Assembly (NCBI GenBank): GCA_020627945.1
Contig: JAHDFW010000007.1
Span: 4,039-51,823, forward strand
From: Cytophagales bacterium
GTDB taxonomy: Bacteria; Bacteroidota; Bacteroidia; Cytophagales; JAHDFW01
Length of the DNA: 47,785 nt
Reading direction: 5' to 3'
Shown: piece by piece, positions 31,510 to 47,785 of the stretch
Numbering within the stretch: the first letter of the stretch is position 1
Layout of the letters: every line of letters begins with the position of its first letter
Position numbers and translations under genes: made by a program
The notes under the pieces: generated by a model
The model's database searches: none
What the model was told of the DNA's origin: nothing
Seen by the model: only the letters and a program-made list of their open reading frames with translations

Positions 31510-32673
31510 TTATCTACGTTCCACAGGTCCGCGCCCTCCCATAGGAACCGGACAAGGAAGAAACTTTTTAATTTTCGGAACCTTAGAATAGTGATGAGGT
31601 ACAAACGTAATATTAATTTCATGAGCTCCAAAGGTGTTAGCAATCTTCAGCTTTGAAACTATAAAGTCGTAACTATAACTGATATCTATTCCATTATAAA
31701 TCCAACCTACTACTCCAACAAAAGATTCGTTGTTATGCAATCCAGAAATAGGGTTTTCTGGATCTTGAGGAATCCTTAGTCCTGGATCCGGCAAACTTGG
31801 ATAATCAAACTCTACCAATCTCCAACGCTTTAACGGAATCCCTCTATACCATACCCCCACTAACAATTGATCAAATATTCCATATAAACCTAAGTCTAAC
31901 TGATCTGATTTACCTTGACTTTTGTAATGAAAAGTCGGAGTTATCGCATATGCTTTTGGTTTATTAAGATGAGAATACGCTCCCATTCCCGTTTCTCTTG
32001 GTAAAGGAATTCTGTAACCACCTACCAACGCATATTTAATTGGTAACAACCCATTCTGTTGACCTGTCGCTGGGTTTACCCCGTCAATATCAGGAATTCC
32101 AGCTATGGTGAAATCCGTGTTCGGTGTATTTAAATGATGCGCTGAAGCAGATATGTAGTAATTTTTATTATAAAACAAAAGACCTGAACTAATATCAGCC
32201 ATACCCTTTCTTAAAACTCTAGCCGAAGGTGGGTTTAAAACATTAATCCCAGTTGTTTGCAAGTTCTGTGGAAATACTAAACCGTAACCAACACTTCGAG
32301 CAAGATACCCCAATTGCATTCCAAACCTCAAAGAATGAGTTTCATCAACATGCAATTCATAAGAATACTGAAGACTTAAATCCGTGGTTCTTAAGTCATT
32401 TGAACCCTGAAAATCTTGAATAATCATCACACCAAAACCGCTTTGATACTGTTCAAAATAACGATCATATGCGAACATGGTGGTATTATACTTACCGTCA
32501 ATTTTAGGCCATTGCACACGTTGATGCATCATAATCCTATTATGATGATCACTACCAGCAAAAGCTGGATTCAAATACAAAGCCGAGGCATAAAACTGTG
32601 CAAATTGGATATCCTGTCCAAGCACCGATCCGCCTACCAAAAGACTAAACAATAAAACGTAAATTTTGCGCAT
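31510..32673 (-). CDS. PorP/SprF family type IX secretion system membrane protein
   Basis: QDIQFAQFYASALYLNPAFAGSDHHNRIMMHQRVQWP..., GFGVMIIQDFQGSNDLRTTDLSLQYSYELHV, SYDFIVSKLKIANTFGAHEI: typical PorP/SprF pattern. Confidence 0.92.
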   Translation of the reverse strand: MRKIYVLLFSLLVGGSVLGQDIQFAQFYASALYLNPAFAGSDHHNRIMMHQRVQWPKIDGKYNTTMFAYDRYFEQYQSGFGVMIIQDFQGSNDLRTTDLSLQYSYELHVDETHSLRFGMQLGYLARSVGYGLVFPQNLQTTGINVLNPPSARVLRKGMADISSGLLFYNKNYYISASAHHLNTPNTDFTIAGIPDIDGVNPATGQQNGLLPIKYALVGGYRIPLPRETGMGAYSHLNKPKAYAITPTFHYKSQGKSDQLDLGLYGIFDQLLVGVWYRGIPLKRWRLVEFDYPSLPDPGLRIPQDPENPISGLHNNESFVGVVGWIYNGIDISYSYDFIVSKLKIANTFGAHEINITFVPHHYSKVPKIKKFLPCPVPMGGRGPVERR

Positions 32674-33098: not shown

Positions 33099-33214
33099 CA
33101 CTTGATTAGGTCTAATGCGTAACAGTTTATGAAGAACTTTTTGCATTTTTCCAATATTTTAAAACCAAATCAAAACGCATGCGTACAAGTCTACAGTTTG
33201 ATTCAAAAGGGATT

Positions 33215-36200
33215 ATGAAGAGATTTCTATTTTTTGCCACAAGTTGTGTATTAGCATTTTTCGTGGTCACCCCGACTAAAGCGGGTGGACCAGCGACTGG
33301 ATGTACCACCTTACCTATAGTTGAGGACCCTACGCTGGGCTCTGACCTCAATGAACATCCATGTGATGACAATGTTCCAGTCTTTGTTGTTGACCTTCGA
33401 GGTGACAATGATAGTTTATGGGACACACGAAACTTCGTCGGACAGGATATGGAAACGGGAACATATAACGGAATTCCCATTAACGGATTTGATCAGTTGG
33501 ACATCAACCTTCCGTTGGATGGTGTAGGTGTACGTCGTCATGGTGATAAGGATGCGCCATGTGAAACTTGTTGCGAATCGAATGTCATTAATCCAGACAA
33601 CGAATCATGTGTGGGAATCATTTTGTATTTGGACGATGCTGCAGCTGGGATGGCGTTTGACATTGTTTCTGGTGCAACGCCTGGATCTGGTGTTTTAGGA
33701 TATCGATTCATGTATCCAGATGGTAACGCAAATCCTTTTGACCCAGGAAATATAGGCTGTAGTCCAGAATATCCTGCCAACGGAACTGAGATTTGTTTAG
33801 CTGGAGGAGGCCCTTACTACCTGTCATTTTGTAAGCCAGGTGCAAACCCTAACCATTTCACAATAAGATCAGTACCTGCTCCAGAGGTTGGGCCAACAGA
33901 TGTTGTTTCGGAAGCATGTTTAGGTAAAGTATGGGCTACTGGATATAATCCAGCCACTATCCAATGGACTCCTGTCCCTACTGGAAGTCCATGGGCTGAT
34001 TCAGCTGTACTAACATGGATGTACTCTGATAGTGCTTATACGTCTCAAACAAATGGTCAATTCATAGACACCTTGTACGTTGCAATTGATGAAAACACAG
34101 CATTAAACTTTGCTGACTCATTACCTGACTCGGTATTTTTCGAAGTATGTGGTAGCCCTTTTGGATCTTGTGATAACCTAGTTATTTGTGATACTACCAT
34201 GATCCGATTCGTTAGTAACCTGGAAGTAGAAGTCACCCCAAAAGATCCCGCCATATGTTTTGGAGAATCCTTTGTAACCTTATTTGCTAATGGTTTAAAT
34301 GGTGATCCACCATACATTTACAATTGGTATTTAGATGGAGATCCTGTCCCCGTTTATGTCGGTATTGGTGATGATGACTCCATTAATGTATTCGGATCAG
34401 GAGCTATAAGTGCTGGACAATATGTCGTCACATTGCTCGATCAACAAGGGTGTAGTTCCAACAACGACACCACAAATGTACTTGTATATCCATCTCCTAT
34501 CAGCATAGATGTAGGACCAGACACCATTGCCTGTGCCAATGATAGTTGTGTTCAATTATCCGCCGAAATAGTCGTCGCAGGAGGTATGATTTGGGAAACC
34601 GCTGGGCTTACTGGTTCGTTCTCAGTTAATGATTCGACAGATTCTGTTGGCGTGTTAAACACTACGTATTGCCCTGGCTCTTCTGAAGTTACTAATGGCT
34701 CGGTTGAGTTAATTGGTAGAACTACAGAAAACCGTACTTGTGCGGCTGAATACGATACATTAGTGCTTTCTTTTGACCCTCCTCCTACGGTTGAAGCTGG
34801 ACCAAATGACACCGTTTGTGCTAACAATCTTGATGTTCAATTAGGAGGAACTTTTACCAATTCAACGGGTGGAGTCTGGTCTGGTGGTACTGGAGATTAC
34901 TCCACGTTCCCCCAGGACCCTAATGCCATTTATACCCCTTCAGACGGTGATACAATAGGTGGCGCGTTCACGTTATTTTGGGAAAGTACAGGACATTCAA
35001 CTTTTTGTGCTCCTGAAAGGGATAGCTTGGTTATTACCGTTGTGCCATCCCCTATCGTAGACGCAGGACCAGATGATACAACTTGTAACAACAATTACAA
35101 TACAACCCTAGCTGCATTCTCATCTACTGGGACTGGAGTATGGAGAAATGCAAATGGAGATAATAGTGGTTTTGTGGATGTTAATTCACCAACCAGCGGA
35201 TATACTCCTACTGCGGCAGATGAGTTAGCTGGTGAAGCAATACTTATTTGGGAATCAACTAACAACGGATTGTACTGTGTACTTGAAGCTGATACTATGC
35301 GTTTGGCCGTTAATATTGCTGCTACAGCAACTGCGCCAGATGACTTCAATGTTTGTCAAAATAACCCAGACTTCTCAGTAACGGGAATTACCAACCCTAC
35401 TAGTCTTAGCGTGTATTGGACCACGAACATGCCAGGTATGTTTACAGGAAATGATTCTACGAATTACACGGTTTCATATGAACCAAATGTTACTGTAAAT
35501 GATACTGGGACTTACGATTTATTATTTTGCATACCTAATCCTGGCGATGCATGTTTGTTAGAATGTGACACCACGGTAGTTGAAGTTACCCCTTCCCCAG
35601 TCGTTAATGCGTGTGAAGGATGTGGACCTTTTGCTTACAATTTCGTTTGTGTAGACAACTGTGTTTCTGATCAAGCTGCTTTCTCTGGATTGCAAGGATC
35701 ATTCGCTAATCAATCTTTCTTCCCTGGAAGTGGAATTGTATGGAGAGTTTATTATTCAACGGATTTAGCTGGTACAAATATGCAACCAGTTCCGGATCTA
35801 GATACTAGAATGACAGATTCGACGCTATTAACAAGTGATTATTGTCCAGGTACCGAAGAAACTCCAATTTTCCCAAACACTGGATATAGAATTCGTTTTG
35901 AAATAAGACCAACCAATGTAGGTAATTGTTTGATTCAACCTGCTACGGCGGACATGCTTGTTTTACCTGCTCCAGTAGTGGATTTAAGTCCTGATCTAAC
36001 TTTATGTGAAAACAACTTAACATCAGTTACGGTATCGCCTAATGTCAGCTTTGCTCCGAACGTAACGGTTGGAGCATCTTCTTGGACTTCAAACGGGTCG
36101 GCTACAGGTTTTTCCGCTCCTACCAGTCAAACCACAGATTATAATACTCCTTCGGATGCGGTAGCAGGAGATTCATTTAACCTAAAGGTTTGTGTGAATT

Positions 36201-39200
36201 CTTTAGTGCTTATTAGTGGAACACAATGTCCTACTATATGTGATAGTTTAACATTAGACATACTAGCAGCACCGACGGCTTATGCTGGATTGGATCAAGA
36301 AGTTTGTGCCAATAACCCAGAAGCTACATTAACAGGTGATACAACATCTGGGGACTCTCGAGGTGACTTGAACTTCCAATGGAGTAATATATTTGGTACA
36401 GATGGTACGTTTACTACCCCTACTGATCTTAGTACTAATTATACTCCTGATGCATCGCAAGTTATATCTAACTTAACTCCTCCTGGAGATAGTACGTGGT
36501 GTTTAGAATTTACAGTGGCCGATGATTCTAGTTTCTGTGCTCCTGTGTCAGATACGGTTTGTATTAAAGCAACACCATCTCCATTGGTTGAAGCAGGTCC
36601 TCCAGATACTGTCTGTGATAATAACAGACAAGCGTTCCTAAACGGTTCGGTAACTGAAGGTGGTTCAGCTGGTGTTTGGTCGGGTGGAACTAATGTTTTC
36701 CTACCTAATAGTAATACACTAGTGAATGCAGGATATAACCCTGTTACTCCAGATTCAGTAACACTATATTTATGTTCTACCGATGGTGTACTCAATGGAT
36801 GTTTAGAAGTATGTGACTCTGTTAAAGTATATGTTACTCCTTCACCTACTGTTAATGCAGGTCCTGATGATACATCTTGTGTCAACAACCCTAATATAAC
36901 ATTACAAGGAACATTCGATAACACTATTTCTGGTGGTATTGTATGGCGTAGTTTCGATGGCACGTTCTTACCAGCAAGTGATAGTACAAATCCAAATGGT
37001 ACATACCAACCTTCTGCTGCAGAATTGGGTGCTGGTAACACAACATCAAGTGTTATTATTTCAACCACCAATTCTGGAAATTGTTTTGAGGTAGTTGATA
37101 CTGTAGACTTATTCTATAACCCTACCCCAATCGTTGATGCTGGTAACAATGTTAATTCTTGTTCGAACAATCCAATAGCTTCAATAAGTGGTACAGTAAT
37201 AAACGCCGGCGGAGGAATATGGTCTACCAATAGTACCGATGTTACTATTACTTCTCCGACTACATTAGCAACCGATGTAAATTGGACCAATGGATTACCA
37301 ACTGCTGGAGACAGTGTAATAATGTATTTAACATCTAGTGATAACGCTAACTGTTTGCCAGTGGTAGACTCTATGACCATTCACTATACACCAGCTCCTA
37401 CTGTGGATGCTGGACCAGCCGATACTTCGTGTGCTAATAACACTCAGTTATGTTTAAATGCGAGCATGACATTATCTACAACTGCACTATGGTCAAACTA
37501 TGATGCTGGTGGGAGCTTCTCGGGTGGTTCTAACACCAACTTATCAGTATGTTACAATCCAACTCAAGCAGAGATTGATGCAGGTGGTGTATTGTTCCAT
37601 ATTACTACGACGGATAATGGAAACTGTTTACCAGTAAGTGACTCAGTATTCCTTACTATAATAGAGTCTCCAACCGTTGATGCTGGACCTCCTCAAACAT
37701 TATGTTTAGATGAATTACCTTTCACGCTTAATGGTTCATTTACCAATGACGGTTTGGATCCAGTTCCTTACGGTATAAACTGGATTGTTCCAGCTGGTGG
37801 AATAATTTCTTCAGTAACAAATACTGGTGCAACTTATACACCTCCATCTGGAGATTTACCAGTTATTGGAGCTACGACACCAACAACCTCAGACTTATAT
37901 ATTACAACGACTGGTGGACGTTATTGTAACGCGGTTACTGACTCAGTTACATTTACAATAATGCCTAGGCCTGTAGTGGAAGCTGGTGGAGATGTAGTTG
38001 TATGTACAGATGCAACTAGTATTGATCTTTCTGATTCAACTCTTAATGTTAATTCTGGAACATGGAGTTTAGGATCAGGTGCTACTGGTTCATTTAACGC
38101 AGGACAAACACAGTACTTAATCAACCTTCCTGGAGATTCTATAGGAGGTGACGCAATTACACTTATATACTGTGGAGATAATCCAACTTACGCTGGCTGT
38201 GGTGTTTATTGTGACAGTATCCAGGTATCTTTCCAATCTGCACCTACCGCTGTTGTTAATGCTCCTGGAACCGTTTGTAATAACGACTTCCCTATTGGCA
38301 TCACAGCCACAGGATCTGGTGCTGGAAGTTGGTCTGTAAGAAGAATTGGTGGTGGAGCTTCAAGTGCTACTTTTGGTAGTCTAACTGCACTTAATACAAC
38401 TGTAAATCCTCAGCCTGCTGATGTTACAGCAGGTAACATTATTGTGAGATGGACTACGGACATCATAGGTTCTTGTCCTTCTTTCTTTGCTGAAGATACC
38501 ATTAACTTATTACCTGGACCAATAGTTGAAGCTGGACCAGATGATACGCTTTGTTCAGACAATCTTGGAGTTGACCTTTGTGGTACAATTACTAATGCTG
38601 GCGGAACAGGTTACTGGAGTGTTTTATTAGGTCAACAGCCTGGAACTTTCATTAATGGTCCAGGAGCGCTTTGTCCTAACAGATATCTGTTCAGTAGCGG
38701 AAACTATGCAGATGGTACGGTTACTTTAATTTTACAAAACGATGATCTTACATTCTGTCCTCAGGCTACAGATACTGTAGTATTTACTTTGACACCAAAT
38801 GTAATAATTGATGCAGGTATTGACAGAACAATTTGTGGAGATCAAGATACTATTCAATTATCTGGAAGTGTTGCAACGGCAACTGGAGGTACTTGGACAA
38901 CCAACAGTACATGTAATGGTCCTATCGGAGCTTTCGACGATCCTAATATTTTATCACCTATATATACATGGTGTGCAAATGACACAGTAGGTAGCGCTGA
39001 TTCGGTAGTTATATATGTTACTTCAACAGGTAATGGATTATGTACTCCGGTGATGGATTCAATGGTATTGCATGTAACTCCTGTTCCTACTGTAGATGCA
39101 GGTCCTGACGATACTCTTTGTTATGATGAATTAAATATAACATTGAATGGTTCGGTTACGGTTGCAGCGCAGGGTGTATGGACAAATAACACAACAGGTC

Positions 39201-42200
39201 CAAACTCATTTACCAATGGTGGTGTATTCAATAACCCTACTGGTCCTGTAACTTATACTATAACTGAAGAAGACAGTTTGGCAAATGCCGCAGCAACTTG
39301 GGAATTCTATCTAAGTACTCAAGGTGCTGGGCAATGTAACAATGTAATGGACACCATGCTTCTAACAGTATTGCCTGCTCCAGTGGCTATTGTACAAAAT
39401 GACACAAGTACATGTTTTGATGCAGGAAGCTTTACACTGTGCGGAGACATGCTAAACTCTACTACTGGAATTTGGAGTAGTAATGGAGGTGGATCATTCA
39501 ATGGTACAGAAACCAATGTTTGTGGTGCCGTTTATACATTTAGTGCAGGTGACACAAACACCACTATTGTATTCAAACTATTAACTACGGACAATGAAAA
39601 CTGTTTTGCTGACTCGGCTACATTCACTTTGACAATTACTCCAAGTGTTATTGTAGAAGCTGGTCCTACACAAACTATATGTGCAACTGGAGATACAATT
39701 CAGTTGAACGGTTTTGTACAAAACGCTGGAGGAGGAACATGGTCTAATACTACTGGAGGTTCTTTCATAGATAATATAGATTTAACAACTTCTTATGTTC
39801 GTTCTCCTACCGACTCTACGAATGGTTTTACCTTTGTTTACTTAGATAGTAGACTTGAAGGACAATGTTTACCGCAACGTGATAGTATGCGAATCAACTT
39901 CACTCCAGTGCCAATAGTTGAGGCTGGACCAAATGATACGATTTGTGGTGATGCTGGAAGCGTAATGTTCTCTGGTACTGTGACCAATGCAACAGGTGGT
40001 CATTGGAGTTCTAGTGGAGATAGTGCATTCTTTGATAATGCAGATACATTAAATGTAACATTCGTTCCTTCTTCGAATGATACAAGTCAAGCTAATCAAC
40101 CATTAACTATTTATCTTACTTCAACTGGTAATGGCATATGTCAGCCAGTACAAGATAGTTTATTGTTAACAATCACCCCTATTCCAAGAATTGGAGTAGA
40201 CGATTTTGATACAGTTTGTGCGGATGTTGATACAGTATACTTATCATCAACGGTTGTAAATGCTGATGGAGTTTCATGGACGACGAATGGTTCTGGAACA
40301 CTAGTAGACTCAGCAATGTTAAGTGCTAAATATATATTATCAGATTCAGATACTTTGAATGGTAGTGTAAGATTCTTCGTTACTTCAACAGGTAATGGAT
40401 TATGTAATGCATATACAGAACAACTAGACCTTATTATCACTCCTGCTCCTGTTATGGATGCTGGGCCAGGTCTTACAATATGTAGAGATCAAGCTGCTGT
40501 TAATATTACTGGTACCGTGATGTTTGGAACTGGTGTTTGGAGCTCCTCTGATCCTGCAGGTGTATTTGGGGACAATACTCAGTTGAACACTACTTATACC
40601 CATAATACGACTGATCCTTTAATCCCAGATACGGTAACACTAACTTTACGTAATACTGGAGTCGGATTATGTCGTGAGATAACGGATAGCTTACAAGTAA
40701 TAATTAACCCAATTCCAATTGTAGATGCTGGTACTGTGGATACCGTTTGTGCGGATTCATCTTCGCTAGTACTTAATGGTACATTCTCGAATGCTGGTGG
40801 AGGTGTATGGACCTCTCCAACTAATGGAATCTTTAGTCCTGATTCGACTAGTACTACTCCTACGTATAACTTTAGCCCAGATGACTATACAAATGGTTCG
40901 GTTGTTTTAAGTTGGACAGCAACAAACACTGGTGTTTGTGATCCTGTTACTGATCAAATTGCAATCAATATTACTCCTGCTCCTACCGTTGAAGCAGGTG
41001 ATCCAATTAGAATATGTGCGGATGCTCCTGCAACCACTCTGGATGGTAGCGTAACTGTTGCTACAGGTGGTGCTTGGACAAGTAACGGACAAGGAACTAT
41101 TGCAGATACTGCTAACTTAAATAGTCTCTTTACAGCAGATTCAGCAGGTATTGTAGTATTAACTTTAACAACGGTTGGCAATGGGTTATGTAGACCTGTT
41201 TCAGACAATGTGGTAATTACTATTGACCCTGCTCCAACTGTAGGTGCGGGACCTGATCAAGTAGTTTGTGCGGATGTTACTGGTGTAACTATGTCTGGTA
41301 ACTTCACCAATGCAACTGGAATTATTTGGAGAGCATTTGGTACTGGAAGTTGGCAAGGTAATGATAGTACTTCTCTTGGAGCAGTATATCTACCTTCTCC
41401 TCTTGACATTACAGTAGGTACTATTCAAATAACTGCTACGACAACAGACTCTATTACAGGTTGTTTATCTATCGTAGATACAATGGCTGTGGTATTTAGT
41501 CCACTACCAACTGTAGACGCAGGAGATGCAGCTGCATGTTTTGATGAGTCTGGTGTGACACTTACTGCTGTAAGAACCAATGCACCTGGTGTAATCTGGA
41601 GCACATCTGGTTCTGGAGGTGGTAGTGAGTTTGGAGGAAATACAGCTAATGATGTAACATTCTTCACTCCTCACCCTGCGGACGTACCAGGAAATATTGA
41701 AGTTTATGTAAGAACTCAAGTTTCAGGAGGATGTCCAGCAGCCCATGATACTATTCAAGTTCAAATCAGACCTGAACCACTTGTTGAAGCTGGTTTAGAT
41801 TTAGTGATTTGCGAAGATGAACCGTCAGTAATTGTTGGAACTACAGCAGACACTACCAACTATAACGGGCCATTAGAATGGTTTTCTAGTGGTGCCACTC
41901 AAGGTAATTTTGCAGACTCAAGTTTGATACCTACTCAGTATGATCCTTCAGCAATTGATCTTGTAAATGATTCAACTATCATTTACCTATGTACAACTGA
42001 CAATGGTCTTTGTCCTGAAGTATGTGATTCATTGTTCATTTTCTATACTCCAGCGCCGGCAGTTTATGCAGGCCCTGACCTTACAAGATGTGCTGATGAA
42101 GACACGGTATGTCTTACAGGGGCAACGGTCAACACTATCCCTGGTGGGGTAATTTGGACTACTGATGGAGATGGATCTTGGTCTAGCAATGATTCCACAA

Positions 42201-45200
42201 TATTAGAACCTTGTTATGAACCAGGTATTGACGATGACACAACAGGAGGAGCTACATTAACCCTTTGTACAACGGACAATGGAAGATGTCAGACTTATTG
42301 TGATGATATGATTCTCAATATTACTCCTGCTCCAACATTTAACATGCCTCCACCAGATACATTCTGTTCAGATATTGGATCATACATTGTTTCAGTAACT
42401 GATTTGACAGTTGCAACTGGTGGACATTGGACATACAGTGGCATGCCTGATTCATTAGGTTCTCCATATGGTGATAGTTCATTAACTATAAGAACTTACT
42501 TCTCAGATGCTGATCGTGACACGGTTGATTTAGTTTATACTTTCTGTGCTGATCAAGGTAATGGTCGTTGTCAAGTTTATTGTGATACATTCACGCTTCA
42601 CTTAACTCCTGCCCCTACTTTAGATATTCTTGACTCAGCACTTTGTGCAAGTGATGATAGTTTAAGAGTTGGAGCTTCTTACACTATTGCAGGAGGAGTT
42701 GAATGGATTACACTAGGAGATGGATATTTTGTTGATTCCTTAGCGGACTCTACGTATTACTATTTCGGTAATCAAGATAAAATTGACCAAACTGTAATTC
42801 TTGTAGCCGAGACTAGAGATGTTGGAACATGTACCCCTATCTATGATACAGTGATCGTTAACTACACAGAACCATATGCTGTTACTGCAGGTCCTGATCA
42901 ATTAGTATGTAGCGATACCAGTGCGATTCAACTTGATGGAGGTCATAACACTCCAGTAACTTCAATCTTGTGGACCTCGCTCGGAACTGGCACACCAGTA
43001 TTCTCAAATAGTATTGATACCAATTCCACTTATATAGTTACTCCAGATGACATTGATTCAGGAGGCGTTGACATTGTAATTACTACTACTGTTGGAGGTC
43101 TTTGTCCAGAGTTAACAGATACCATGCGTATTAATATTTACCCTGCTCCTATTGTAGATGCTTCAGCACTTAATGCTTGTGCGGAAACAGATACTATAGC
43201 GTTAACAGGTACAGTAATTGATACAGCAGGAAATATTGGTACTGGTGTATGGAGCACAGTTGGAGATGGAATTAATAGTGGAGACGGTACTTGGTTCCCA
43301 AATACTACTACGTTAAACACTAACTATATAAGAGGATCAGCTGATTCCACTAATGGTACATTCCTGTTAAGGTTAACTGCTGACCCTTATGGTGATTGTA
43401 GAACGGTATTCGATACATTAAGAATCAACTTGATTCCTGTACCACAAGTATTCACTTCAGACACTGTTATATGTAAAGATGCCGATGAAATCGATCTTAA
43501 GGTTTATACGTTCTCAGATACAGTTAATACTTTAACTTGGTCTGGTGGAAACGGAACTTTTAGTATGGGAGACATATCCGCGGGCGTTGATAGTATCTAT
43601 AAGAACGATAGTTCTATGACTACCTATACTTTCAATCATCCAGCTGATACGAATGGAGTAGATTCGTTAGTTCTTTATGTTACAAGCGCGGGAGGAGAAT
43701 GTTCTGCAGTATTGGATAGCATTGTAATTAGATTTAATCCTGTTCCGATAGTTAATTCAACACCGGACGTAGCTTGTACAATTTTCGATACTATTAATCT
43801 TTCCGGTACAGTGCTAAATGCTGGTGGTGGAATTTGGTCTCATTCAGGTAACGGTAACCTAGAGTTTGCGAATACTATTTTAACAAACAACTATATTCCA
43901 AACGCTCTTGATACAACAGGAACTGCAGATTCGATCGTGGTTAGATTATGTTCAAGACTTGAAAATGGATGTAAAACTTACTGTGATTCTTCTGTAGTAT
44001 ACTTTACTCCTCCGCCAACTATATTTGCAGGTAACGACACTACCGTATGTGCTGATGTACTATGTGTGGACCTTAACGGGGTTTCAGTTGATACAACCGC
44101 TTCAGCTGGTGCGCGTTGGACCGTTGATGTAGGAGGTGTATTTGTTCCGAATGATTCAACATTCAACGGAGCTCAATATTGTTTCCCTGATACATTAATC
44201 AATGGTGACAATGACACTACTGCAACTTTAATACTTACTACTTATGGTAGTGGTAGATGTCCTGAGATTTCTGATACGTTATTAATGTCAATCACTCACC
44301 CACCATTGGTAAGTGCTGCAGACACTATAACAGTATGTGCCGATACATCTGGAATTCCTGTTGGAGTATTCAGTAACGATGTTCCTGATTCTATTGTATG
44401 GAGAGTTATCGAGGGTACGGGTACTTTTACCGATACGACCGCAGATACAACTATATACCAATTAACACAAGCTGATATCGACAGTGGTTATGCTATTGTA
44501 AGTTATTCTGCTTATGATATAGAAGGTTGTTTCCCTGTAGTTGATACGATTTACTTGGAAATTACTCCTGCTCCAACTGTGGATGCAGGACCTTCGGAAA
44601 TCTGTATTGATAATCCTACCGTACAACTGAATGGTACCATCACTCATAATGGTGTTTCAACACCGAATGATGGTTTCTGGACAAGTTCTACCCAAGGGTT
44701 AAATGGATTCACTGCTGGTAGTAGTGTAGCTAATTCATTCTACGCATTGGACCCTGCATCTGGAGATGTTAGTGGTGCTACTGTTGAGTTAATACTTACT
44801 ACAACTAACAATGGTCTATGTAGAACCTATAGAGATACAACAATTCTTAATATTATTCCTGCACCTTTTGCTGAGGCGGGTCCTAATTTTGCAATTTGTG
44901 GAGATCAAAATCAAGTGTGTATTACTGGTGCAAGTGTAACTACTACGAATAGCGTTTGGACAACTTCTACGGGAGACGCAAGTGGTTTTGTGGATGTAAA
45001 TGCGCCAAACACTTGTTATAATTTAAGTGCCGCAGATGCTGCAAATGGAGTTACTCTATACCTAACAACTACCTTCGATAACAGAGGTTGTAACCCAGGG
45101 TTTGATTCTCTAATTGTTCAGACTACTGCCCCTGCTGTAATTGATGCAGGTCTTCCAGATACGGTTTGTTATGAAAGTGCTCCGGGGGTTCCTAATACAG

Positions 45201-47785
45201 TTCAACTAAATGGTTCGTTCTCGTTTGATGTACCTGGTGCTGGTATTACATGGACCGCTGAAAACGGAGGTATCTTCAGTAGTGTTACAATGCCTGGACT
45301 AGGTAACACAGACACAACTGCTGTTTATAACCTGATCACCGCCGACTCTTGTGGAGCTATGATGCTGTATATTGAGAGTAATGGAACAGGAACCTGTCCT
45401 ACAGTTAGGGATTCAGTTGAAATATTTGTAAGATGTGTACCTGCCTTGACAGACAACGCCGATACAACAGTTTGTTCTGATATCGACAGTGTAGAGGTAT
45501 GTGTTACTCTTCAAAATGCAACTGGTGTAAACTGGACTACTAGTAGTACAACAGGAAGTTTCAGTAATAGTACATTGTTGTGTACTCAATACTTCCCGTC
45601 AATGGAGGATCGTAACGATGGTGTAGTAGAACTTACTCCTGCAACAACAGGAAATGAGCAATGTCAAACATATACTGAGAGTTTCTTATTGAACTTGACT
45701 CCTGCCCCAACGGTAGATGCGGGTCTTCCGCAAACTACATGTTCATGTGCTGGTGATAGTATATTCTTGAACACGGCTACGGCTACGGTCGCTAATTCGT
45801 TTGCATGGACAACCGATGGAGCGGGTACATTTGTAGACTCGACAGTTCTTAATGCTATCTACGTTCCAGCTTGTCCTGGAGATTCAGCGGTAACCATCAA
45901 CTTAATATTGGCTGCTTCGGATACTGTTACAGGATGTAAGACGTATATTGATACGGTTCAAGTTATATTCGAACCAGCTGTTGAGATTTCAGCTGGTGGA
46001 CCAACAGATACAGTATGTGCTGATAATAGAGTGGTTCAATTGAATGGTTCTGTTCTTGTGGCTCCTGGAGCTGAGTGGACAACTATTGATGGTGATGCTA
46101 ATCAGTTCAACCCTCTTCCGCCGAATATTGATACCGTAACATATACTCTGACTGATGCTGATACAACAAGAGGAGAAGTTACTTTCGTAATTAACTCTGC
46201 TGGATATGATAAATGTTTAACAGAGTACGATACTATAACAGTTTATATAGAGCAACCTCCAGTGTCTAGTGGTGGATTTGATGACACCATTTGTGCGGAT
46301 GAAATTGCCTATACATTATCTGGTGGAGTTTCCGTAAGTGGAACTGGTTTCTGGAGTACTTCTGGAGACGGGTCTTTCACCGTTGACAGTTCTCAATTAG
46401 ATGGTGATTACGTACTTGGAACTACAGATGCCATGGTATTCCACCCTACGGCTAATCAGATCTTCTTGACATTAACATCTACTAATAATGGAAGCTGTAA
46501 CGCTTCTCAAGATGTTGTTGAACTTATCGTAACTGCTTTACCAATAGTAAACGCTGGACTTGGAGGTTCAATCTGTCAGGATGATTCTACTTATGAATTC
46601 ATCGGTAACGGTGCGTATATATTAGATGGTGCATCTCAAGGTGTATGGAGCACAAGCGGTGATGGTAGATTTACTGATACGATCTTTAACTTCGGTAATA
46701 CCAATACCTACGTTCTTGGGCCTAACGATCTTCTTAGAGGAGACACAAGAGACTCTATCATGTTCGTGTTGACAACTTCAGATCATGGTCGTTGTGCACC
46801 TGTATCAGATACTATGTATGTGACTGTACTACCTAGACCTACGGTAAATGTAGATCTTACTCCAAACATGATTAATGACACTGTGACAATATGTGCAGAT
46901 CAGGATACGGTTACATTTGTTGGGCAGGTTACGAATACCCCTACTCAATTGTGGACTAGTATACCATTTGCATTGGCACCTTCACAACCATTTGATAATC
47001 CTACGGCACTTACGGTACTATATACTGTAGATGAGTCGTTGAAGCCTGCTGATGGTGCTAACTCTCCTACTTATGTTGGAATTACATTAAGAACAGTAGG
47101 AAACCAAAACGGTTGTCAAGAAGTAGAAGATGTACTTACGTTAGAAATAACTCCTAGACCTACGGTTACCGTTGTTGTTCCAGATTCAGTTTGTGCTGAT
47201 GTTGGATTCTTCGAAGTAGCTGGTGCTGTGGAAATTGCAAGTGGTGGAACATGGAGTTCTACGGACATAACAGGTTCGTTCGGTACTCCTACACTTTTAA
47301 ACACTGTTTATAACTATGGTACTAATGACCTTAACTTTGGTCAAGCTACCGTAACGCTTACTACAACTGGAAGTGGACAATGTAATGAGGTTTCTGCTAC
47401 TGAAGATGTACTGATTACTCCTGGTCCAGAAATTGGTGCAGGTACTGATATCACAATTTGTGCTGATACAGGTAGTGTTGTATTAAGTGGTCAAAGTTTT
47501 AACAGTGTAACAAGAGCAGTGCGTTGGATTTCTATTAATGGCTTCGGTACGTTTTCTGATCCTACTAGTCTAACAACTACTTATAACATTGCTCCTGCTG
47601 ATCTTCCAGAACGGGATGCTACAGTACCAACAGTATTGACATTTATACTACAGACAACAGACGTAGGCGATTGTCAAAATATCCAAGATACGGTACTTGT
47701 TATAATTGATCCAATTCCAGTTGTAACTGTAAGTGCAGGAGACATTTGTGCGGATTTAAGAGGACTTGAAGTAGTTGGTACTGAA
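33215..47785 (+). CDS. Giant secreted tandem-repeat surface protein (SprB/PKD-like repeat adhesin), truncated by the window end
   Basis: No stop was encountered while translating by hand from ATG 33215 (alternative ATG 33179, same frame) to 47785. Begins MKRFLFFATSCVLAFFVVTPTKAGGPATGC (signal peptide), then about 48 repeats of about 94 aa, e.g. PAPTVEAGDPIRICADAPATTLDGSVTVATGGAWTSNGQGTIADTANLNSLFTADSAGIVVLTLTTVGNGLCRPVSDNVVITI. Confidence 0.93.
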   Translation, partial: MKRFLFFATSCVLAFFVVTPTKAGGPATGCTTLPIVEDPTLGSDLNEHPCDDNVPVFVVDLRGDNDSLWDTRNFVGQDMETGTYNGIPINGFDQLDINLPLDGVGVRRHGDKDAPCETCCESNVINPDNESCVGIILYLDDAAAGMAFDIVSGATPGSGVLGYRFMYPDGNANPFDPGNIGCSPEYPANGTEICLAGGGPYYLSFCKPGANPNHFTIRSVPAPEVGPTDVVSEACLGKVWATGYNPATIQWTPVPTGSPWADSAVLTWMYSDSAYTSQTNGQFIDTLYVAIDENTALNFADSLPDSVFFEVCGSPFGSCDNLVICDTTMIRFVSNLEVEVTPKDPAICFGESFVTLFANGLNGDPPYIYNWYLDGDPVPVYVGIGDDDSINVFGSGAISAGQYVVTLLDQQGCSSNNDTTNVLVYPSPISIDVGPDTIACANDSCVQLSAEIVVAGGMIWETAGLTGSFSVNDSTDSVGVLNTTYCPGSSEVTNGSVELIGRTTENRTCAAEYDTLVLSFDPPPTVEAGPNDTVCANNLDVQLGGTFTNSTGGVWSGGTGDYSTFPQDPNAIYTPSDGDTIGGAFTLFWESTGHSTFCAPERDSLVITVVPSPIVDAGPDDTTCNNNYNTTLAAFSSTGTGVWRNANGDNSGFVDVNSPTSGYTPTAADELAGEAILIWESTNNGLYCVLEADTMRLAVNIAATATAPDDFNVCQNNPDFSVTGITNPTSLSVYWTTNMPGMFTGNDSTNYTVSYEPNVTVNDTGTYDLLFCIPNPGDACLLECDTTVVEVTPSPVVNACEGCGPFAYNFVCVDNCVSDQAAFSGLQGSFANQSFFPGSGIVWRVYYSTDLAGTNMQPVPDLDTRMTDSTLLTSDYCPGTEETPIFPNTGYRIRFEIRPTNVGNCLIQPATADMLVLPAPVVDLSPDLTLCENNLTSVTVSPNVSFAPNVTVGASSWTSNGSATGFSAPTSQTTDYNTPSDAVAGDSFNLKVCVNSLVLISGTQCPTICDSLTLDILAAPTAYAGLDQEVCANNPEATLTGDTTSGDSRGDLNFQWSNIFGTDGTFTTPTDLSTNYTPDASQVISNLTPPGDSTWCLEFTVADDSSFCAPVSDTVCIKATPSPLVEAGPPDTVCDNNRQAFLNGSVTEGGSAGVWSGGTNVFLPNSNTLVNAGYNPVTPDSVTLYLCSTDGVLNGCLEVCDSVKVYVTPSPTVNAGPDDTSCVNNPNITLQGTFDNTISGGIVWRSFDGTFLPASDSTNPNGTYQPSAAELGAGNTTSSVIISTTNSGNCFEVVDTVDLFYNPTPIVDAGNNVNSCSNNPIASISGTVINAGGGIWSTNSTDVTITSPTTLATDVNWTNGLPTAGDSVIMYLTSSDNANCLPVVDSMTIHYTPAPTVDAGPADTSCANNTQLCLNASMTLSTTALWSNYDAGGSFSGGSNTNLSVCYNPTQAEIDAGGVLFHITTTDNGNCLPVSDSVFLTIIESPTVDAGPPQTLCLDELPFTLNGSFTNDGLDPVPYGINWIVPAGGIISSVTNTGATYTPPSGDLPVIGATTPTTSDLYITTTGGRYCNAVTDSVTFTIMPRPVVEAGGDVVVCTDATSIDLSDSTLNVNSGTWSLGSGATGSFNAGQTQYLINLPGDSIGGDAITLIYCGDNPTYAGCGVYCDSIQVSFQSAPTAVVNAPGTVCNNDFPIGITATGSGAGSWSVRRIGGGASSATFGSLTALNTTVNPQPADVTAGNIIVRWTTDIIGSCPSFFAEDTINLLPGPIVEAGPDDTLCSDNLGVDLCGTITNAGGTGYWSVLLGQQPGTFINGPGALCPNRYLFSSGNYADGTVTLILQNDDLTFCPQATDTVVFTLTPNVIIDAGIDRTICGDQDTIQLSGSVATATGGTWTTNSTCNGPIGAFDDPNILSPIYTWCANDTVGSADSVVIYVTSTGNGLCTPVMDSMVLHVTPVPTVDAGPDDTLCYDELNITLNGSVTVAAQGVWTNNTTGPNSFTNGGVFNNPTGPVTYTITEEDSLANAAATWEFYLSTQGAGQCNNVMDTMLLTVLPAPVAIVQNDTSTCFDAGSFTLCGDMLNSTTGIWSSNGGGSFNGTETNVCGAVYTFSAGDTNTTIVFKLLTTDNENCFADSATFTLTITPSVIVEAGPTQTICATGDTIQLNGFVQNAGGGTWSNTTGGSFIDNIDLTTSYVRSPTDSTNGFTFVYLDSRLEGQCLPQRDSMRINFTPVPIVEAGPNDTICGDAGSVMFSGTVTNATGGHWSSSGDSAFFDNADTLNVTFVPSSNDTSQANQPLTIYLTSTGNGICQPVQDSLLLTITPIPRIGVDDFDTVCADVDTVYLSSTVVNADGVSWTTNGSGTLVDSAMLSAKYILSDSDTLNGSVRFFVTSTGNGLCNAYTEQLDLIITPAPVMDAGPGLTICRDQAAVNITGTVMFGTGVWSSSDPAGVFGDNTQLNTTYTHNTTDPLIPDTVTLTLRNTGVGLCREITDSLQVIINPIPIVDAGTVDTVCADSSSLVLNGTFSNAGGGVWTSPTNGIFSPDSTSTTPTYNFSPDDYTNGSVVLSWTATNTGVCDPVTDQIAINITPAPTVEAGDPIRICADAPATTLDGSVTVATGGAWTSNGQGTIADTANLNSLFTADSAGIVVLTLTTVGNGLCRPVSDNVVITIDPAPTVGAGPDQVVCADVTGVTMSGNFTNATGIIWRAFGTGSWQGNDSTSLGAVYLPSPLDITVGTIQITATTTDSITGCLSIVDTMAVVFSPLPTVDAGDAAACFDESGVTLTAVRTNAPGVIWSTSGSGGGSEFGGNTANDVTFFTPHPADVPGNIEVYVRTQVSGGCPAAHDTIQVQIRPEPLVEAGLDLVICEDEPSVIVGTTADTTNYNGPLEWFSSGATQGNFADSSLIPTQYDPSAIDLVNDSTIIYLCTTDNGLCPEVCDSLFIFYTPAPAVYAGPDLTRCADEDTVCLTGATVNTIPGGVIWTTDGDGSWSSNDSTILEPCYEPGIDDDTTGGATLTLCTTDNGRCQTYCDDMILNITPAPTFNMPPPDTFCSDIGSYIVSVTDLTVATGGHWTYSGMPDSLGSPYGDSSLTIRTYFSDADRDTVDLVYTFCADQGNGRCQVYCDTFTLHLTPAPTLDILDSALCASDDSLRVGASYTIAGGVEWITLGDGYFVDSLADSTYYYFGNQDKIDQTVILVAETRDVGTCTPIYDTVIVNYTEPYAVTAGPDQLVCSDTSAIQLDGGHNTPVTSILWTSLGTGTPVFSNSIDTNSTYIVTPDDIDSGGVDIVITTTVGGLCPELTDTMRINIYPAPIVDASALNACAETDTIALTGTVIDTAGNIGTGVWSTVGDGINSGDGTWFPNTTTLNTNYIRGSADSTNGTFLLRLTADPYGDCRTVFDTLRINLIPVPQVFTSDTVICKDADEIDLKVYTFSDTVNTLTWSGGNGTFSMGDISAGVDSIYKNDSSMTTYTFNHPADTNGVDSLVLYVTSAGGECSAVLDSIVIRFNPVPIVNSTPDVACTIFDTINLSGTVLNAGGGIWSHSGNGNLEFANTILTNNYIPNALDTTGTADSIVVRLCSRLENGCKTYCDSSVVYFTPPPTIFAGNDTTVCADVLCVDLNGVSVDTTASAGARWTVDVGGVFVPNDSTFNGAQYCFPDTLINGDNDTTATLILTTYGSGRCPEISDTLLMSITHPPLVSAADTITVCADTSGIPVGVFSNDVPDSIVWRVIEGTGTFTDTTADTTIYQLTQADIDSGYAIVSYSAYDIEGCFPVVDTIYLEITPAPTVDAGPSEICIDNPTVQLNGTITHNGVSTPNDGFWTSSTQGLNGFTAGSSVANSFYALDPASGDVSGATVELILTTTNNGLCRTYRDTTILNIIPAPFAEAGPNFAICGDQNQVCITGASVTTTNSVWTTSTGDASGFVDVNAPNTCYNLSAADAANGVTLYLTTTFDNRGCNPGFDSLIVQTTAPAVIDAGLPDTVCYESAPGVPNTVQLNGSFSFDVPGAGITWTAENGGIFSSVTMPGLGNTDTTAVYNLITADSCGAMMLYIESNGTGTCPTVRDSVEIFVRCVPALTDNADTTVCSDIDSVEVCVTLQNATGVNWTTSSTTGSFSNSTLLCTQYFPSMEDRNDGVVELTPATTGNEQCQTYTESFLLNLTPAPTVDAGLPQTTCSCAGDSIFLNTATATVANSFAWTTDGAGTFVDSTVLNAIYVPACPGDSAVTINLILAASDTVTGCKTYIDTVQVIFEPAVEISAGGPTDTVCADNRVVQLNGSVLVAPGAEWTTIDGDANQFNPLPPNIDTVTYTLTDADTTRGEVTFVINSAGYDKCLTEYDTITVYIEQPPVSSGGFDDTICADEIAYTLSGGVSVSGTGFWSTSGDGSFTVDSSQLDGDYVLGTTDAMVFHPTANQIFLTLTSTNNGSCNASQDVVELIVTALPIVNAGLGGSICQDDSTYEFIGNGAYILDGASQGVWSTSGDGRFTDTIFNFGNTNTYVLGPNDLLRGDTRDSIMFVLTTSDHGRCAPVSDTMYVTVLPRPTVNVDLTPNMINDTVTICADQDTVTFVGQVTNTPTQLWTSIPFALAPSQPFDNPTALTVLYTVDESLKPADGANSPTYVGITLRTVGNQNGCQEVEDVLTLEITPRPTVTVVVPDSVCADVGFFEVAGAVEIASGGTWSSTDITGSFGTPTLLNTVYNYGTNDLNFGQATVTLTTTGSGQCNEVSATEDVLITPGPEIGAGTDITICADTGSVVLSGQSFNSVTRAVRWISINGFGTFSDPTSLTTTYNIAPADLPERDATVPTVLTFILQTTDVGDCQNIQDTVLVIIDPIPVVTVSAGDICADLRGLEVVGTE
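34500..47785 (+). repeat. Tandem protein-coding repeat array, about 48 units of about 280 nt
   Basis: Unit starts read at about 34500, 34785, 35050, 35320, 35600, 35970, 36270, 36580, 36845, 37125, 37395, 37670, 37970, 38240, 38515, 38800 ... 46545, 46840, 47160, 47420, 47715. Each opens with a P-x-V-x-A-G / [TV]-C-[AG]-[DN] motif. Confidence 0.9.

Follow-up and report, generated by a model that had tools for sequence, protein, structure and literature searches.

The window, that is, the whole stretch of 47,785 nucleotides that was analysed, contains a giant gene whose product is very probably a surface protein secreted through the type IX secretion system (T9SS), built of immunoglobulin (Ig)-like repeats in which one disulfide is invariant and in which optional cross-strand disulfides, present in about 40% of the units, were repeatedly gained as matched cysteine pairs and likely stabilise the protein. 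The added bonds would lie across adjacent antiparallel strands: B with E, F with G and, once, C' with E. The sequence-only reading of this DNA had proposed three distinct intra-repeat disulfides, and these three predicted kinds, one invariant and two optional, are strongly supported by cysteine co-occurrence, even cysteine counts, sliding registers, couplings in relatives and modelled strands.

An Invariant Cysteine Pair and Even Cysteine Counts

The units of the array (Table 1) are about 90 residues long, and the start of a 48th lies at the contig end. Searches of Pfam and NCBIfam at E values up to 1 returned no family for the giant protein, and hence none of the known repeat models by which the SprB adhesin family is recognised. 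Residues 1–436 had no Pfam family, and a sequence search of the PDB gave one weak, unrelated match for this part.

Cys1 and Cys2 are present in all 47 units, which makes general what the earlier reading had seen in nearly every repeat, one cysteine near the start and one near the end. Cys1, the residue before strand B, would bond Cys2, in the F-G loop, within each unit. Twenty-seven units have these two cysteines only; the other 20 contain 44 extra cysteines in all. Units (cited below by their first nucleotide or by their label in Table 1) hold 2, 4 or 6 cysteines, with the sole exception of the adjoining units 45125 and 45431, whose counts of 3 and 5 reflect one pair divided by the unit border as drawn. 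These two odd-count units compare with 20 expected, and the minimum in 200,000 random placements of the 44 extra cysteines was 6. Two blocks consist of consecutive units without extra cysteines, 39638–41767 (eight units, at aa 2154–2774) and 45971–47707 (six units, at aa 4265–4747). The first of these blocks includes the units nearest to the family consensus.

Table 1. Features of the giant gene, its neighbour and the repeat units with extra cysteines. B/E registers give the B cysteine relative to Cys1 and the E cysteine relative to Tyr (Y); F/G registers are relative to Cys2.
Feature	Coordinates	Strand	Remarks
PorP/SprF family gene	31510..32673	-	outer-membrane partner of type B T9SS cargo; PF11751, E 1.2e-64; divergent neighbour of the giant gene
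Giant repeat protein gene	33179..47785	+	single open frame, 4869 aa, truncated by contig end
N-terminal part, aa 1–436	33179..34486	+	hydrophobic leader, 16 Cys
Repeat array, aa 437–4843	34487..47707	+	47 complete Ig-like units
u437	34487..34774	+	B/E, +5/Y+1
u713	35315..35587	+	F/G, -8/+4
u804	35588..35962	+	divergent, 6 Cys: B/E-like (+4/Y+1) plus CEGC near unit start
u929	35963..36265	+	F/G, -12/+4, longer F-G loop
u1030	36266..36571	+	F/G slid by -4/+4 (Cys2-12/+8)
u1132	36572..36835	+	F/G, -9/+4
u1404	37388..37657	+	B/E, +7/Y-1
u1595	37961..38236	+	F/G, -9/+4
u1778	38510..38791	+	B/E, +9/Y-4, one-residue bulge
u1872	38792..39076	+	third kind: C41 of the C' loop paired with C61 (Y+3) at the end of strand E
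u2065	39371..39637	+	B/E, +9/Y-4
u2864	41768..42046	+	F/G, -7/+4
u2957	42047..42322	+	6 Cys: B/E (+7/Y-1) and F/G (-7/+4); modelled unit
u3049	42323..42604	+	F/G, -8/+4
u3520	43736..44005	+	F/G, -7/+4
u3610	44006..44293	+	B/E, +5/Y+1
u3893	44855..45124	+	B/E, +7/Y-1
u3983	45125..45430	+	Cys at F start (-15); likely partner is RC at G-strand end (+13), drawn into u4085
u4085	45431..45697	+	B/E, +9/Y-3; Cys at aa 4086, first of the unit, assigned to u3983
u4174	45698..45970	+	B/E at ladder end, +2/Y+4

Optional Cysteines Come in Pairs That Slide along the Strands

Two optional sets had been described from the letters alone, and both co-occurrences were borne out across the 47 units. In set (a), the strand B cysteine of VCLTG or QLCLN accompanies the strand E cysteine of EPCYEP or SVCYNP: ten units have both, none has only the B cysteine and one has only the E cysteine (Fisher p = 2e-9), its partner cysteine lying at C'. 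In set (b), where the strand F cysteine of LTLCTTDNG accompanies the strand G cysteine of CQTYCDD, both occur in nine units, the F cysteine only in one (with its partner over the unit border) and the G cysteine only in none (Fisher p = 7e-9), so that units lacking one partner do, as had been noticed, usually lack the other. The sets occur independently of each other (p ~0.4–0.7). All 16 unit positions listed in the sequence-only reading were correct (eight for each set, with the unit at 42050 in both); its list lacked five units with extra cysteines, namely 35588 (a-like), 45698 (a), 36266 (b, slid), 45125 (b-like) and 38792 (a third kind).

Set (a) had been described as one pair of columns, and here the co-occurrence stands while the single register does not: the pairs occupy a sliding ladder with three main registers, Cys1+5 with Y+1, Cys1+7 with Y-1, and Cys1+9 with Y-3 or Y-4. 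The ten units have registers of +2/+4, +4/+1, +5/+1 (two units), +7/-1 (three), +9/-4 (two) and +9/-3. The two positions shift in opposite directions with a near-constant sum (r = -0.98, permutation P = 9e-5). Seven units have a sum of 6; the other three, which show local one-residue irregularities, have 5. Because the partners are displaced oppositely by equal steps, the bonds are predicted to run across adjacent antiparallel strands. In unit 36266 the set (b) pair has moved -4 on F and +4 on G; a relative (L121) shows shifts of -6 and +6, and the set (b)-like pair of unit 45125, measured manually on the alignment, shifts of about -8 and +9. The C'/E pair, the third kind, occurs once in the giant protein, in unit 38792, and also in several relatives. 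Chance as the source of the pairing is ruled out by parity, co-occurrence and register sliding.

Couplings in Relatives and a Modelled Unit

Units of other genomes, 2031 in all (effective number 1150), were the basis of mean-field couplings for 3570 column pairs; the set excluded the units of the window and any unit with more than two cysteines in aligned columns. The Cys1-Cys2 coupling ranks ninth. Within the F/G block, the strongest diagonal (i+j = 153) is the one that carries the main F/G cysteine pair, and column pairs 69-84, 67-86 (the register of u1030) and 71-82 (the main register) rank 5, 8 and 51. Ranks in the B/E block are 64, 68 and 261 for 20-55, 22-53 and 24-51, and the diagonal of the cysteine pairs (75) is second there to 77. 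Column pair 40-57, which corresponds to the C'/E kind of unit 38792 and several relatives, has rank 2.

A single-unit AlphaFold model had been suggested as a check, and the AF2 model of u2957 (pLDDT 94.3) places strand B at 21–22, E at 56–58, F at 68–75 and G at 85–91, limits that fit the pairs 22-56 and 74-85. The unit is an Ig-like beta-sandwich, with a Foldseek probability of 1.00 to titin, SraP and VL domains; it is a divergent one, the best Foldseek E value being 0.016.

Extra Cysteines Are Rare in the Repeat Family

The family profile (A1) spans about 89 positions, of which Cys1, Trp, Tyr and Cys2 are nearly invariant. It matches 46–47 units of the window, and its 2130 matches in total fall in the giant protein and some 94 others; 151 of 395 Bacteroidia genomes have a strong match. 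Outside the giant protein, 2040 full-length units were counted in some 94 proteins: exactly two cysteines are present in 1993 of them, four in 15, three in 10 and one in 22. Exactly two cysteines is thus common in the family without being strict, and 20 of the 47 window units depart from it. The extra-cysteine pattern is atypical of the family: more than two cysteines occur in 20/47 window units versus 25/2040 units elsewhere, a roughly 60-fold enrichment (odds ratio 60, Fisher p = 2e-23) in a test where units of one protein are not fully independent. At 3.2%, the cysteine content of the giant protein is the highest among the long arrays examined (median 2.2%).

Paired cysteines at the same positions were found in other genomes (L061, L060, L187 and L121). 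A profile of the set (b) units, searched for relatives rich in that set, matched only plain units outside its own genome. A peptide-pattern search of GTDB contigs found no orthologue of the giant gene, and none from the same family stood among the relatives. The closest sequences to the GyrA of the window are 66–73% identical; they belong to Flavobacteriales and to further Bacteroidota, often uncultured ones.

Secretion and Oxidation

The giant protein is probably a type IX cargo partnered by PorP/SprF, a route suggested by the neighbouring gene and by the sorting domain of its relatives. It has the adjacent PorP/SprF gene that marks type B cargo, and complete relatives, judged by eye, end in a type B sorting domain. 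The giant protein's own C-terminus is lost at the contig end; elsewhere in its genome TIGR04131, the type B sorting domain, is matched 32 times. Neither VKOR (PF07884) nor DsbB (PF02600) was found in this draft genome, which is 88.6% complete. The secreted proteins of the genome look disulfide-rich despite this.

Origin and Role of the Optional Pairs

That the pairs occupy multiple registers, and turn up again in other genomes, favours repeated gain. Matched pairs would arise again and again at any rung of the ladder that permits a bond, because selection in a secreted fold would act against a lone cysteine but tolerate or favour a pair able to bond. Ten units of relatives have three cysteines, so that an unpaired cysteine is tolerated at times. 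The extra disulfides would most likely make exposed domains more stable, both thermodynamically and against proteolysis.

It is quite conceivable, if not what we favour, that the pairs are neutral: adjacent cysteines drift in, bond in an oxidising compartment and are then hard to lose, with no role in mechanics or stability. The irregular positions, registers and kinds would suit such drift, as would the fact that relatives thrive although about 98% of their units have a single disulfide; against it stand the concentration of extra cysteines, about 60-fold by odds ratio, in one protein and the need for two cysteine gains, the first of them costly.

A mechanical role depends on where each bond lies. 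In u2957, Cys1-Cys2 closes residues 15–81, set (a) falls wholly inside this loop, and set (b) joins residue 74 to residue 85 outside it. Because the closed loop bears no load on end-to-end pulling, set (a) would be irrelevant to extension unless Cys1-Cys2 were reduced, and a stiffness role for set (a) while that bond is intact is unlikely; set (a) may still count for resistance to heat and to proteolysis. Set (b), in tying residue 85 to 74, can hold the terminal G strand. Set (b) would thereby fasten the terminal G strand, which bears load, to its neighbour F, and Cys1-Cys2 would shield set (a) mechanically. It is tentative, and to us rather doubtful, that the optional cross-strand disulfides, evolving unit by unit and sliding on the ladder, amount to a natural experiment and also to a mechanical code specific to each unit, with set (b) locking the load-bearing G strand.

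The sequence-only reading had gone further, with disulfide-rich and disulfide-poor stretches setting a pattern of stiffness along the fibre. Units with extra cysteines are slightly clumped along the array (18 runs versus 24 expected, P 0.05), there are the two all-plain blocks, and a two-unit model has a fairly well-defined arrangement, with a pTM of 0.76 that is no test of stiffness itself. These statistics are weak, and with residues 15–81 already shielded from end-to-end load, set (a) would be unable to alter extension; since set (b) alone lies on the load path, such a pattern is possible for set (b) only, and we consider it unlikely overall.

Descent of the pairs from a few ancestral units through repeat duplication, with co-occurrence reflecting shared ancestry and no bond, would draw on the fact that the units are mutual duplicates and that set (b) units adjoin (2864-2957-3049 and 929-1030-1132). 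Copying would not be expected to produce sliding, however, and one pair is found in several registers; pairs also recur in other genomes. When the units are placed on a tree built after masking the extra cysteines, the best topology requires at least 10 changes for the B cysteine and at least 8 for the F cysteine, and 4 of 44 inner branches are well supported; on this tree, whose resolution is too low for a statistical proof of independent gains, the labels are unclustered (set (a), 6 changes, shuffled mean 6.5; set (b), 5 changes, shuffled mean 6.7). We regard shared ancestry as very improbable. Hardly credible at all is a role of the pairs in binding metal or in linking separate chains into a bundle, given that each pair falls within one domain, at antiparallel positions that adjoin and are coupled, and that the partners slide together, with no accompanying His or Asp cluster seen by eye, even though paired surface cysteines could bridge chains and some relatives have odd cysteines.

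If the predicted bonds are real, one gene would offer some 20 extra cross-strand disulfides in one fold, apparently gained separately and in several registers, together with 27 plain sister units as an internal control for the effect of a disulfide on stability and unfolding force. It would also provide material on how a disulfide can be acquired while avoiding a harmful stage with a single cysteine, and a sliding set that evolved unit by unit would show which rungs of the Ig fold accept a bond.

Comparison with Known Systems

In the tandem Ig domains of the titin I-band, cysteines at B, F and G vary by domain, CysF-CysG is among the reported pairs, and disulfides alter elasticity (PMC5766482). 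The giant protein resembles titin in that disulfide-capable cysteines come and go by domain along a tandem array. Titin, in contrast, is an intracellular protein whose cysteine triad occupies fixed columns, with many cysteines single and with redox isomerisation (PMC5766482), whereas the giant protein has one invariant bond, extra cysteines that are almost always paired, and a distinct B/E kind with sliding register. The giant adhesin of Mobiluncus mulieris is likewise a giant bacterial Ig-repeat surface protein, for which the available part of the source describes 51 cross-linked Ig-like domains with intramolecular cross-links that include one disulfide between adjacent strands within one sheet (PMC10619420). 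It differs in that its cross-links are mainly ester and isopeptide bonds and the organism is Gram-positive; optional covarying cysteine pairs are not described in that part of the source (PMC10619420). The SprB/SprF system of Flavobacterium has a long surface adhesin held by SprF and the type IX type B route, and a PorP/SprF gene adjoins the giant gene here; its disulfides, however, join SprF to GldK and not strands inside repeats (PMC12635249).

Sequence searches of the PDB for relatives of the repeat gave only a weak match to the Aureispira grappling hook protein GhpA (PDB 9flp), where evenly spaced, weak profile matches cover about residues 4754–5720 at the C-terminal end; the best E value, 0.04, does not demonstrate homology. 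The literature searched, with most subscription journals outside it, gave no account of optional or sliding disulfide pairs in this repeat family.

Odd Cysteines in Relatives

In nine other proteins (L159–L164, L169, L177 and L184), neighbouring units have lost opposite cysteines, the first lacking Cys1 and the next Cys2, with one cysteine left in each (for example at aa 2840 and 2930 of the L163 protein). Such neighbours could possibly form an inter-unit bond, exchange strands or keep two free thiols. Five proteins have a third, conserved and apparently unpaired cysteine two residues past the E-strand Tyr (L170 aa 1264/1439, L183 aa 1014/1189, L173 aa 1442, L176 aa 1969 and L181 aa 1463), and in two of them a second odd cysteine (NFCAGG) lies two units upstream of the third-cysteine unit. 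The repeats also occur in an extremely large predicted protein, a listed open frame of 27093 aa at about 75000–95000 of G1056:C2 (L156).
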